A DNA stretch of 32,982 nucleotides from Oscillospiraceae bacterium (GTDB lineage Bacteria > Bacillota > Clostridia > Oscillospirales > Butyricicoccaceae): assembly GCA_015068285.1 (NCBI GenBank), contig SVKW01000005.1, positions 1 to 32,982 of the forward strand, written 5' to 3'. Position 1 is the first letter of the stretch. Every line of letters begins with the position of its first letter. The translations under genes were made by a program, and so were the position numbers. Shown piece after piece: positions 16,316-19,925 of this stretch. The notes beneath the pieces were generated by a model that saw only the letters and a program-made list of their open reading frames with translations, was not told where the DNA came from and did not search any database.

Positions 16316-16342
16316 CGAACATTCTTCTTAAAAGTCTGTCTA
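16316..16342 (+). promoter_or_regulatory. Candidate ECF-sigma promoter (possible autoregulation)
   Basis: CGAAC (16316-16320) - 16 bp - TGTCTA (16337-16342), resembling the AAC/GTC ECF architecture, ~33 bp upstream of the sigma-factor start codon. Confidence 0.4.
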
Positions 16343-16374
16343 TATAGGTAAAGAAACACGAAAGGGGGATAAAT

Positions 16375-16932
16375 ATGGAAGACGAAAAAATCATTGAGCT
16401 ATATTGGTCGAGAGATGAGCTTGCGATATCTGAATGCAAGGCTAAATATGACAGCTCACTCATTCGTATTTCGTATAATATCCTGTCAAATCACGAAGAC
16501 AGCGAAGAATGTGTCAATGATACACATATAAAGGTATGGAATGCCATTCCGCCCGATAAACCTTGTTCGCTCTTCGCTTATTTAGGCAGAATAACACGAA
16601 ATATTTCCATTAATTTATGGCACAAACGAAACGCGCAGAAACGCAGAAGCGCAGGCGATATTCTGCTGTCGGAATTATCCGAATGTATTCCTCATACAGA
16701 AACAACGGAAAATGCCGCTGAATCCAACGAATTAAGCAGAATAATCTCCGATTGGCTCTACACTTTGCCTGTTGATGATCGCGTACTGTTTGTACGCAGA
16801 TATTGGTATGGTGATTCTGTGGAATATCTTGCACAAAATCTCTCGCAGACGAGAAGCGCTGTTTCAGGCAGACTTTTCCGTATGCGTAAGAAACTGAGAA
16901 CACTTCTTGAAAAGGAGGGTATTTCAATATGA
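16375..16932 (+). CDS. ECF-type RNA polymerase sigma-70 family sigma factor
   Basis: EDSEECVNDTHIKVWNAIPP...LFAYLGRITRNISINLWHKRNAQKR (region 2) and LPVDDRVLFVRRYWYGDSVEYLAQNLSQTRSAVSGRLFRMRKKLRTLLEKEG (region 4); RBS AAAGGGGG. Confidence 0.92.
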   Translation: MEDEKIIELYWSRDELAISECKAKYDSSLIRISYNILSNHEDSEECVNDTHIKVWNAIPPDKPCSLFAYLGRITRNISINLWHKRNAQKRRSAGDILLSELSECIPHTETTENAAESNELSRIISDWLYTLPVDDRVLFVRRYWYGDSVEYLAQNLSQTRSAVSGRLFRMRKKLRTLLEKEGISI

Positions 16933-18290
16933 AAGAGAAAAAGCTTTTTGATGCGATGACCGATATCGATGATAAGCTTATCGATGAGGCAAAGGTAATT
17001 CGCAAAAAGAAAAATATTTATTTGAATAAACTTCTGCCTGTTGCCGCTTGTCTTGTTTTGATTTTGGGATTTTTAGTGTTTAACGGAAACGGAAATGAAA
17101 GTATTGAAGGAGCACTTATGGACGTAGTTTTCCCTAAAGCATTTGCATTTGATGATTATGATTCGCGGCGTGAAATGCGTGAAAATAATCCTGTAGATGA
17201 TTCATTCATTGATGCGGTCAACAATTTTTCCTATGAAACCGCTTCAAAACTGCTGACCGAAAACTATGGCAATATCAACTACTCCCCTGTTTCAATGTAT
17301 TATGCCCTCGCCCTTGCAACAACGGGTGCTGAAGGTGAAACAAGGAATGAGCTGCTTGAGCTTCTCGGCACAGGCGATACGGCTACTTTATCAACACAGA
17401 GCCGCTATCTTTACAACCGGCTCTATCGCGACAATAAAATTATCAAATCACATATCAATAATTCTTTGTGGCTGAATAATGCAGAGAATTTCAACGAAGG
17501 TTTTGTAAACAATGCGGCAAGCAATTTCTATGCTCATGTTTTCAACGAGGATTTCACCAAAGCTGAAACTTCCGAAAAGATGTCCGAATGGGTTGCTTCA
17601 AATACAGGAAACACTATAACTCCTGATATTAAGATTTCTCCGCAGCAAATTATGAGTATTTTTAATACGATTTATTTCAGCACACAGTGGACAGACGAAT
17701 TTGATAAGAACAAAACCGAGGAAGATGTTTTCTATCTTTATGACGGTGACACAGTAAATGTGGACTACCTTAACTCAAAATATGATTCGTACAGATATAT
17801 TGTCGGTGATAATTATATTTCATCTTCCCTGTCTCTTAAAGATGGCGCAAGTATGTTTTTCGTCCTGCCTGATGAGGGTGTTTCACCTCGTGATTTGCTT
17901 ACAACTGCTGAAGACATCAATGCAATTATCAATAACGAAAACGCTTATGCCGGCGAAGTTACATGGCAGATTCCAAAATTTGACTTTAATTCAAATATTG
18001 AAATCACCGAAACCTTGAAACAGCTTGGTGTCACATCGGCTTTCAATGAAAATGCTGATTTTTCCGGAATTACCGATGGAATTGCATATATTGACGATAT
18101 TTTGCAGGAAACCCACATCGCCATTGACGAAAAGGGTGTTACAGCTTCTGCTTTCACACAGATAGATTATGCTGGCGCAATGCGTCCCGAAGGCAAAGCT
18201 GACATGATACTCAACAGACCGTTCATTTTCGGTATTGAGTATGGCAAGACTTTACTTTTCATCGGCATCTGCGACAATCCGGCTGAATAA
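16929..18290 (+). CDS. Membrane-anchored serpin with anti-sigma-like N-terminal segment
   Basis: Overlaps the sigma gene stop by ATGA. N-term MKEKKLFDAMTDIDDKLIDEAKVIRKKKNIYLNK + TM LLPVAACLVLILGFLVF; serpin signatures INYSPVSMYYALALATTGAEGETRNELLELLG, IFNTIYFSTQWTDEFD, VTWQIPKFDFNSNIEITETLKQLGVTSAFNENADFSGI, hinge/RCL THIAIDEKGVTASAFTQIDYAGAMRPEGKADMILNRPFIFGIEYGKTLLFIGICDNP. Confidence 0.92.
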   Translation: MKEKKLFDAMTDIDDKLIDEAKVIRKKKNIYLNKLLPVAACLVLILGFLVFNGNGNESIEGALMDVVFPKAFAFDDYDSRREMRENNPVDDSFIDAVNNFSYETASKLLTENYGNINYSPVSMYYALALATTGAEGETRNELLELLGTGDTATLSTQSRYLYNRLYRDNKIIKSHINNSLWLNNAENFNEGFVNNAASNFYAHVFNEDFTKAETSEKMSEWVASNTGNTITPDIKISPQQIMSIFNTIYFSTQWTDEFDKNKTEEDVFYLYDGDTVNVDYLNSKYDSYRYIVGDNYISSSLSLKDGASMFFVLPDEGVSPRDLLTTAEDINAIINNENAYAGEVTWQIPKFDFNSNIEITETLKQLGVTSAFNENADFSGITDGIAYIDDILQETHIAIDEKGVTASAFTQIDYAGAMRPEGKADMILNRPFIFGIEYGKTLLFIGICDNPAE

Positions 18291-18326: not shown

Positions 18327-19121
18327 TTATGCCGATTTACACGACCAGAGGTTTTTAATCTGGTCTTTTATTTTGTCATATTCCCATAATTTATTGGAAC
18401 GCGATATGCTGTTCGGGTCATTTATTGTGATTTTGCCATCAGCATAGCCTGTCATAACGATATAGTGCCCTGTTGTTGTAAAATCGCCCGGACCGACCAC
18501 ACATATTATCGGATTTCCTGCTTCAAGTTCATTTATAATCGTCTGTTCATTGAGAGGAAGCTCATCAATATCAAGACCAAGCTTTTTACCTCCTTCCGAG
18601 ATAAGAGTCCACGAGCTGCCCTTTCCTTTTTCGGCATATCCCTCTTTCTCGCTCATATCTGCGATATATCCTGGATTGTATTCCGTATTTCCCGTAAGAT
18701 AAACAGAAACCATAGACAGGCATGTCGGTCCGCAGCCGGAAAGCCCCATTATCTCACCGCTGTACTGTTTATATCCCCATCTTTCGTCCCATTGAAGCAT
18801 AAGCGGAACATTTTCTGTATTTGCGTATTCTTCAATTGAAATATCGACCTTTTTATCCTTTTTCAATGGATAATTCAGCACAAATTCCTCTGTTTCAGGG
18901 TTTTTATCGAGCATAGCAAGTATATTATCGGGCCAATCGCTGATTTTCAATTCATGTGTCTGAGCAAAATCCTTCACCCTTTCCACAGTTTCATCCGATA
19001 TATCTTCACCTGCAATATGATTCACAGCTCCGACTATGACCGAAATGGCGATTATCGGTATCATTATAACAATTGCAAGTCTGTGCGGAATAAATCCCCC
19101 TATTTTTCTTCTCTTTCTCAT
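18327..19121 (-). CDS. Membrane-anchored C39-like (papain-fold) peptidase
   Basis: N-term TM LAIVIMIPIIAISVIVGAV; VPLMLQWDERWGYKQYSGEIMGLSGCGPTCLSMVSVYLTG (Cys), FTTTGHYIVMTGYADGKITINDPNS (His, Asp/Asn): C39_2 motifs. Confidence 0.87.
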   Translation of the reverse strand: MRKRRKIGGFIPHRLAIVIMIPIIAISVIVGAVNHIAGEDISDETVERVKDFAQTHELKISDWPDNILAMLDKNPETEEFVLNYPLKKDKKVDISIEEYANTENVPLMLQWDERWGYKQYSGEIMGLSGCGPTCLSMVSVYLTGNTEYNPGYIADMSEKEGYAEKGKGSSWTLISEGGKKLGLDIDELPLNEQTIINELEAGNPIICVVGPGDFTTTGHYIVMTGYADGKITINDPNSISRSNKLWEYDKIKDQIKNLWSCKSA

Positions 19122-19253: not shown

Positions 19254-19874
19254 TTACTTCTTGTCATCGCAAGGGCAATTGTCGCAGTCTGCTTCGCACT
19301 TGCATTCTTCACAGTCATCTTCGCATGTGCAGTCGCATTCTTCACAATCACATTCTTCGCAGTCTTCGCAATCACAGCAATCACATTCGAGGTCAGAAAG
19401 ATCAAACTCCAACTCTTCGCCGCAAGCCGGGCACTTGATTTCGCCCTGTTCGAGGATGCCTTCGTCTACGCTGATTTCTTCGCCGCATGTTGGGCAGATT
19501 ACCTGATAGAATTCTTCTTCATCGAATTCCCAGTCTTCATCATCGTCATCTTCATAGTCGTCGTCATCGTCTTCATCATCTTCGTCTTCTTCGTCAACGT
19601 ATTCGCAGATTTCGTCGAGTGTATCGTCGATATCTTCGATAGCTTCGTCGATTTCGTCAATGATTTCATCGATTTCATCAAGAGATTCTTCGATAAGATC
19701 GAGTTCTTCGCCCATGATTTCTGTCTGATCTTCGAGATCTGCTACAGAGATGCAAAGTTCATCGAGAAGGTCAGCGATAGCAGCAAAAAGCTTGCCTTCG
19801 TTAGTTGTTGTATCGAGATTCATACCGTCCATAAGACCCTTGAGGTATGAAGCCTTTTCTGTGAGTGTCATCAT
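19254..19874 (-). CDS. CD1247 N-terminal-domain-like acidic protein with zinc ribbon and Cys/Asp/Glu-rich C-terminal tail
   Basis: MMTLTEKASYLKGLMDGMNLDTTTNEGKLFAAIADLLDEL N-terminal pattern; acidic run EEDEDDEDDDDDYEDDDDED; CPTCGEEIS...KCPACGEEL; tail ECDCCDCEDCEECDCEECDCTCEDDCEECKCEADCDNCPCDDKK. Start 19874 with RBS AAGGAGAG. Confidence 0.75.
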   Translation of the reverse strand: MMTLTEKASYLKGLMDGMNLDTTTNEGKLFAAIADLLDELCISVADLEDQTEIMGEELDLIEESLDEIDEIIDEIDEAIEDIDDTLDEICEYVDEEDEDDEDDDDDYEDDDDEDWEFDEEEFYQVICPTCGEEISVDEGILEQGEIKCPACGEELEFDLSDLECDCCDCEDCEECDCEECDCTCEDDCEECKCEADCDNCPCDDKK

Positions 19875-19925
19875 TTTCAACTCTCCTTTCAAATGTGAGT
19901 TTCGTTAAGTGACAAGTAAATTAAA

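Follow-up and report, generated by a model that had tools for sequence, protein, structure and literature searches.

Why an ECF sigma factor gene should run directly into a gene for a membrane-anchored serpin is the question raised by the locus studied here, which lies in a 32,982-nucleotide stretch (hereafter the window) of the genome of an Oscillospiraceae bacterium (assembly GCA_015068285.1, contig SVKW01000005.1). The sigma gene lies behind typA, and its ORF shares the four bases ATGA (16929-16932) with that of the serpin, an overlap already described in the initial annotation of this DNA. NCBIfam sigma70-ECF matches the first product with E 4.9e-20 (71.8 bits, cut-off 42.9) and Pfam Sigma70_r2 with E 6.9e-8, above its cut-off, region 4 falling below its cut-off (E 0.0016). 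As expected of an ECF factor, it has only regions 2 and 4, lacks region 3 and is about 180 aa long. The serpin is the sole one found in the source genome, the assembly of which is 86% complete. Features of the module are collected in Table 1.

Table 1. Features of the sigma factor/serpin module, with positions in the window.
Feature	Position	Strand	Basis
Predicted autoregulated ECF promoter: CGAACATTC (16316-16324), 12-base spacer, TGTCTATATA (16337-16346)	16316-16346	+	Clade motif
Sigma-gene ribosome-binding site, gaaaggggga	16360-16369	+	Read from the sequence; 5 bases ahead of the start codon (16375)
ECF sigma factor gene, 185 aa, regions 2 and 4	16375-16932	+	Pfam, NCBIfam
Serpin-bearing putative anti-sigma factor gene, 453 aa	16929-18290	+	Start overlaps sigma stop (ATGA)
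Putative anti-sigma segment (residues 1-28) with two short helices	16929-17012	+	Motif common to 62 non-serpin partners; AF2 helices
Transmembrane helix, residues 36-51	17034-17081	+	Hydrophobic stretch LPVAACLVLILGFLVF; helix in AF2 model
Ala-Phe-Ala, residues 71-73, candidate signal-peptidase-type site-1, juxtamembrane	17139-17147	+	A-x-A comparison
Serpin domain, residues 96-451	17214-18281	+	Pfam Serpin E 6.8e-74
Proximal hinge EKGVTASAFTQ, residues 401-411 (P17-P7)	18129-18161	+	Hinge conservation in 51 serpins
Nominal scissile bond P1-P1' Ala417-Met418, in exposed loop 407-418	18177-18182	+	Count from hinge, Gly403 = P15

The initial annotation had described the second protein as a cytosolic segment, a single transmembrane (TM) helix, a linker and a full serpin fold with a recognisable hinge, EKGVTASAFTQ, and had tentatively placed P1-P1' at Ala-Met by counting the hinge glycine as P15. 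All of this was borne out, the cytosolic segment being 28 residues long, the hinge being of the inhibitory type and the bond falling, by that count, at Ala417-Met418. The Pfam Serpin match scored 249.7 bits (cut-off 27), and a Pfam search of the first 95 residues found no other credible domain. The structure prediction that had been called for, made for the serpin protein alone by AF2 with 51 sequences, gave helices at residues 2-11 and 15-26 near the N-terminus, then the TM helix and, after a short linker, the serpin domain, most of it above pLDDT 90, with low confidence in the exposed loop 407-418. The complete fold was also supported by Foldseek (6.6e-31), and the nearest solved sequence to the serpin domain was conserpin (2.6e-40). 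Tengpin, TBG and miropin were found in the fold search, as were thyroxine- and cortisol-binding globulins, the matches to inhibitory serpins being as good as those to the hormone-binding globulins. When the hinge was compared across 51 serpins, P15 Gly was invariant and P12 Ala, P10 Ala and P8 Thr were nearly so; the window stretch GVTASAF shows the small residues expected at P15-P9, and the inhibitory-type hinge is retained in the sigma-linked serpins. The reactive-loop consensus, YAGAAxPEG, is unusually alike between sigma-linked and secreted lipoprotein serpins, hinting at a shared class of proteases that would accept small residues.

The segment in front of the TM helix turned out to belong to a family. 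The source genome encodes six paralogs of the sigma factor (E < 1e-20), and each of the five for which the downstream gene is complete is directly followed by a membrane protein with a similar segment (for example MKPEKIIDAMNMLDDDLIEQAERK, MKTDMILDAMNEIDDEFLIISEKK and MNRKLLDIIGQADEKYIAEAENY) and a different outer part. The wider collection comprised 97 sigma genes, each having a partner downstream, from 87 genomes of the family and from the serpin loci. The commonest spacing was a -1 overlap (73/97), and nearly all partners of about 90 sigma factors start with M..(k)e.lldAmG.iDd.yIeEA and continue through a basic region into a TM helix. Pfam matched only 3 of 63 partners (62 profile rows and L193), with DUF4179 each time, and in the window protein DUF4179 gave no match at E up to 1. 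The initial annotation had made its proposal depend on conservation of the N-terminal segment among homologues, and the segment is indeed shared with non-serpin partners of paralogous sigma factors. The window protein has the layout of a membrane anti-sigma factor, lying directly downstream of a sigma gene and having a cytosolic N-terminus and one TM helix. The four-helix ASD or zf-HC2 domain of class I anti-sigma factors was absent, with no Pfam match before residue 96 and two short helices in that part. The proteins of the paralogous loci L033-L037 and the other non-serpin partners are a large anti-sigma-like membrane family, with one shared N-terminus and outer domains that are mostly unannotated.

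With the 62 non-serpin partners as its only training set, a profile was applied to 107 serpin frames, 8 contig-edge cases being set aside. A sigma gene lay directly upstream of 23 of the 24 motif-positive serpins but of only 5 of the 75 motif-negative ones, the other 70 having none (Fisher p = 1.2e-16). The sole motif-positive serpin without a sigma gene (L066) still has the last 18 sigma codons, beside an unrelated gene. Among the sigma-linked serpins scored as negative, L009, L011, L013 and L014 visibly contain the same motif in a diverged, weakly scoring form, and L096 belongs to a divergent sigma factor. Several of the exceptions are cases of decay or of detection limits. A diverged segment with no sigma gene was seen at L084, TM-anchored serpins without the segment (L054, L059 and L061) have no sigma gene of this family adjoining, and the other serpins have no sigma gene, most of them bearing signal sequences of the lipoprotein or another type. 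Gene pairs of this kind, N-terminal motif included, are found in many genera, and the proposed switch is present in many gut and anaerobic-digester Clostridia. Because the genes around the module vary between the loci compared, the bicistron is a self-contained unit.

The sigma factor and the segment also vary together. Their distances correlated with a Mantel r of 0.56, while shuffling partners within genomes gave 0.295 +/- 0.047 with none of 2000 shuffles as high, and the co-variation persisted once close relatives were dropped. The co-variation shows paired inheritance; it would be expected from co-inheritance even without contact, and does not of itself demonstrate contact. The survey of homologous gene pairs, in which accidental neighbours would have spoken against the initial annotation, thus found adjacency following the segment, and the shared segment, the adjacency (p = 1e-16) and the co-variation together strongly support the sigma-serpin coupling.

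In the sigma tree, 22 serpin-linked sigma factors form one clade (SH-aLRT 86), which reaches from the family studied here to Faecalispora and Lachnospiraceae, and the others lie elsewhere. The tree requires at least 7 changes of serpin label, a figure that is slightly high because L193 was mislabelled, and 3 of the changes are forced by well-supported branches. L193 itself was rejected as a serpin partner, being a false positive. In a Tissierella sp. (L103:4322-6200) and a Clostridium sp. MAG (L104:579-2511), a serpin with a different cytosolic N-terminus, YNDANKDIIVSEALKKETIDKM, overlaps a distant, unrelated ECF sigma gene. These scattered tree positions and the second sigma class indicate that serpins were recruited to this role more than once, and independently in the second class. 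Serpins with the YNDANKDIIVSEALKKETIDKM-type N-terminus were also seen at L094 and L101, both cut at a contig edge.

Upstream of the sigma gene, CGAATATTC-N12-TGTCTATATA or a variant was found in 20 of the 22 clade members, with a spacer of exactly 12. The match averaged 15.9 of 19 in the clade, compared with 11.3 in shuffles and 11.6 in other paralogs, and in one subgroup (L011, L013, L014 and L017) CGACT replaces TGTCT. The copy in the window is the only one without mismatch in the source genome. A bipartite promoter in front of its own sigma operon is the typical appearance of an autoregulated ECF operon; a promoter of this kind with a fixed spacer at 20 of 22 sigma genes thus implies that the operon is autoregulated. 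A wider regulon search of the genome gave about as many matches as a reversed control and found no other targets of the sigma factor, and loose AAC...CGT/GTC promoter patterns were dropped, most of them being little above chance. Each sigma subgroup seems to possess its own promoter variant. An ambiguous second promoter-like copy, conserved with 2-3 mismatches, was seen at G000:C182:3750-3780 (L201:2551-2581) and G070:C64:4580-4610; in the source genome some 200 bases separate it from a downstream gene for a 188-aa lipoprotein, a gene that continues on contig C166, and the stretch between them is unrelated, differing in G070.

We consider the window protein very probably to be a membrane anti-sigma factor with a serpin as its sensor. 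Computation supports the pairing of the genes, the family of N-termini, the promoter, and both the fold and the hinge of the serpin; physical binding of the sigma factor, inhibition, loop cleavage as the trigger and the site-1/site-2 steps are inferred. In the mechanism that we propose, the two-helix cytosolic N-terminus would hold the sigma factor inactive at the membrane, and the inhibitory-type serpin outside the cell would serve as the sensor. An extracellular protease attacking the reactive-centre loop would cause the serpin to snap irreversibly and carry the protease to its opposite pole, and the snapped serpin could leave the anti-sigma factor vulnerable to site-1 and then site-2 proteolysis, by which the sigma factor would be freed. 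The freed sigma factor would then transcribe its own operon, raising the supply of serpin until the protease has been titrated out. Release of the sigma factor by a protease engaging the loop is a proposal only, and in our judgment the best explanation; we hold it to be fairly probable when taken as a whole, that is, with the sigma/anti-sigma pairing, the serpin as sensor and the loop-triggered release together.

Protease sensing by the loop is consistent with the conserved inhibitory hinge. A serpin N-terminus is not known to shift far upon loop insertion, and we counted this against the proposed signalling from the loop to the membrane. For the cleavage steps, A-[FY]-A at residues 71-73 occurs in 12 of 17 sigma-linked serpins as against 3 of 31 others (p = 3e-5, confounded with lineage). 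A-x-A is also found in 3 of 3 TM-only serpins and is missing in the sigma-linked L053, L057, L060 and L062; as a candidate site-1 it is only a lead. A site-2 protease of family M50 is encoded in the source genome. At L056 the sigma and anti-sigma frames are in register across one TGA, and an AF2 model of this read-through fusion, with sigma rows only in the alignment and none for the segment, was weak, reaching pLDDT 65 and pTM 0.57, with the segment helices near 65 and no contact data. We advance more tentatively, and would not be surprised to see it fail, the further idea that the serpin is a one-shot irreversible membrane receptor, whose snap upon loop cleavage by an attacking protease, or the protease dragged to its other pole, would be read across the membrane to free the sigma factor, that inhibitor and sensor would thus be one, and that serpins of Clostridia may have acquired this role more than once.

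Other readings of the gene pair have to be weighed against this one. A plain tethered serpin might stand behind a sigma gene by chance, given that the serpins collected are for the most part lipoproteins or secreted and have no sigma gene beside them; the association described above and its recurrence in many genera with the -1 overlap led us to reject this reading, the chance of which is practically negligible. The serpin fold might instead be a non-inhibitory ligand-binding or scaffold sensor, like the hormone-carrying serpins, and the thyroxine- and cortisol-binding globulins among its fold matches could be taken that way. However, inhibitory serpins match equally well, and P15 Gly, P12/P10 Ala and P8 Thr are kept in the sigma-linked members, making such a function very improbable. 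Neither co-inheritance nor co-variation can separate inhibition from activation, so that the N-terminal segment could also be something that the sigma factor requires in order to act, a co-activator or a membrane tether as FecR-like regulators can be. This too we regard as improbable: the class II anti-sigma factor CnrY restrains its sigma factor, CnrH, likewise with two helices, on sigma4 and sigma2 (PMC7406223), and the DUF4179 found in 3/63 paralog partners is a domain reported to be restricted to anti-sigma families (PMC6066255).

There is a smaller but real chance that the serpin is only an effector, a protective inhibitor tethered to an anti-sigma factor, and that another trigger, such as envelope stress or another sensor protein, frees the sigma factor, the operon just making more serpin. 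The promoter, which suggests self-regulation and has no other strong copy in the genome than the one before its own operon, would fit such a design, as would a serpin that looks inhibitory and a reactive loop nearly the same in the sensors and the secreted lipoprotein serpins. Against it, the outer domains of the paralogs differ and sit at the usual position of a sensor, and serpins have been put behind such an N-terminus more than once, which suits sensing. On balance we find this reading unlikely, and prefer the serpin as the sensor.

That preferred arrangement can be compared with known systems. RsiV is an anti-sigma factor that senses lysozyme by its outer domain and is cleaved first by signal peptidase, then by a site-2 protease (PMC4183432, PMC6066255); the site-1 cut of RsiP is also made by signal peptidase (PMC8844934). 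Like RsiV/sigmaV of Bacillus subtilis and Clostridioides difficile, the window protein is the single-TM partner of an ECF sigma factor in Bacillota, the outer domain of RsiV being a receptor for an attacking enzyme, and a few partners of the sigma paralogs bear DUF4179, the juxtamembrane domain of RsiV (PMC6066255). Unlike RsiV, its outer domain is a serpin, it has neither DUF4179 nor the RsiV receptor domain, and its N-terminus is of a different family. In Bifidobacterium breve, a serpin gene is induced by protease under serpin-dependent autoregulation through SerRK (PMC7822027), so that a gut bacterium switching on a serpin gene upon meeting protease, proposed here, was shown there; that system is a two-component system with a separate serpin, whereas here there are two genes and the serpin is built into the regulator. 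CnrY-CnrH resembles the module in its short two-helix cytosolic segment, and CnrH was among the fold matches of the L056 fusion model; it differs in being a metal-response system without a serpin. RsgI-type anti-sigma factors of Clostridium thermocellum are reported to be a paralogous family with varied outer sensor domains, cleaved by RseP (PMC12203970). One paralogous family with differing outer domains is what we see here as well. RsgI differs from the window protein in its SigI-type sigma partner, its substrate-sensing domains and its N-terminus. The siropins of Eubacterium siraeum, miropin, tengpin and conserpin, which are bacterial or designed, have the same fold and hinge as the window serpin; accounts of the siropins present them as inhibitors, either secreted or intracellular, and mention no coupling to a sigma factor.

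Most known serpins act as soluble inhibitors or carriers, and a serpin wired into an anti-sigma factor would give bacteria a protease receptor of a new type; we regard it as a new sensor type within a known kind of membrane anti-sigma factor. A literature search for a serpin joined to an anti-sigma factor, with subscription literature largely outside its reach, returned only an unrelated mention in one Bifidobacterium study. Such a protein could explain why some gut Clostridia retain serpins, and the module offers a testable route by which commensals could sense proteases of the gut or of their neighbours. The modular N-terminus with its exchangeable outer domains would also be a handle for decoding many unannotated sensors, since a Pfam match was found in so few of the partners (3/63).

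Some single loci deserve mention. At L079 (4432-8402) the sigma gene, the serpin anti-sigma gene and a second, lipoprotein serpin gene lie in a row, an order suggesting a secreted serpin as an output of the module. At L066 (1-1958) the sigma gene is apparently cut by an inserted gene and the serpin anti-sigma gene is intact; its product may be an orphan in the membrane. Frame changes have broken both the sigma and the serpin gene in Tissierella praeacuta DSM 18095 (L114:4858-6202), which gives the impression of a joint loss. In the window, a gene for a membrane-anchored C39-like papain-fold peptidase (18327-19121, minus strand) is convergent to the serpin gene, and its conservation was not seen at other loci of the module. 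Beyond it, an acidic protein with no Pfam match above cut-off (19254-19892, minus strand) has a coiled coil and a Cys/Asp/Glu-rich tail that resembles a zinc ribbon (CPTCGEEI...CPACGEEL).
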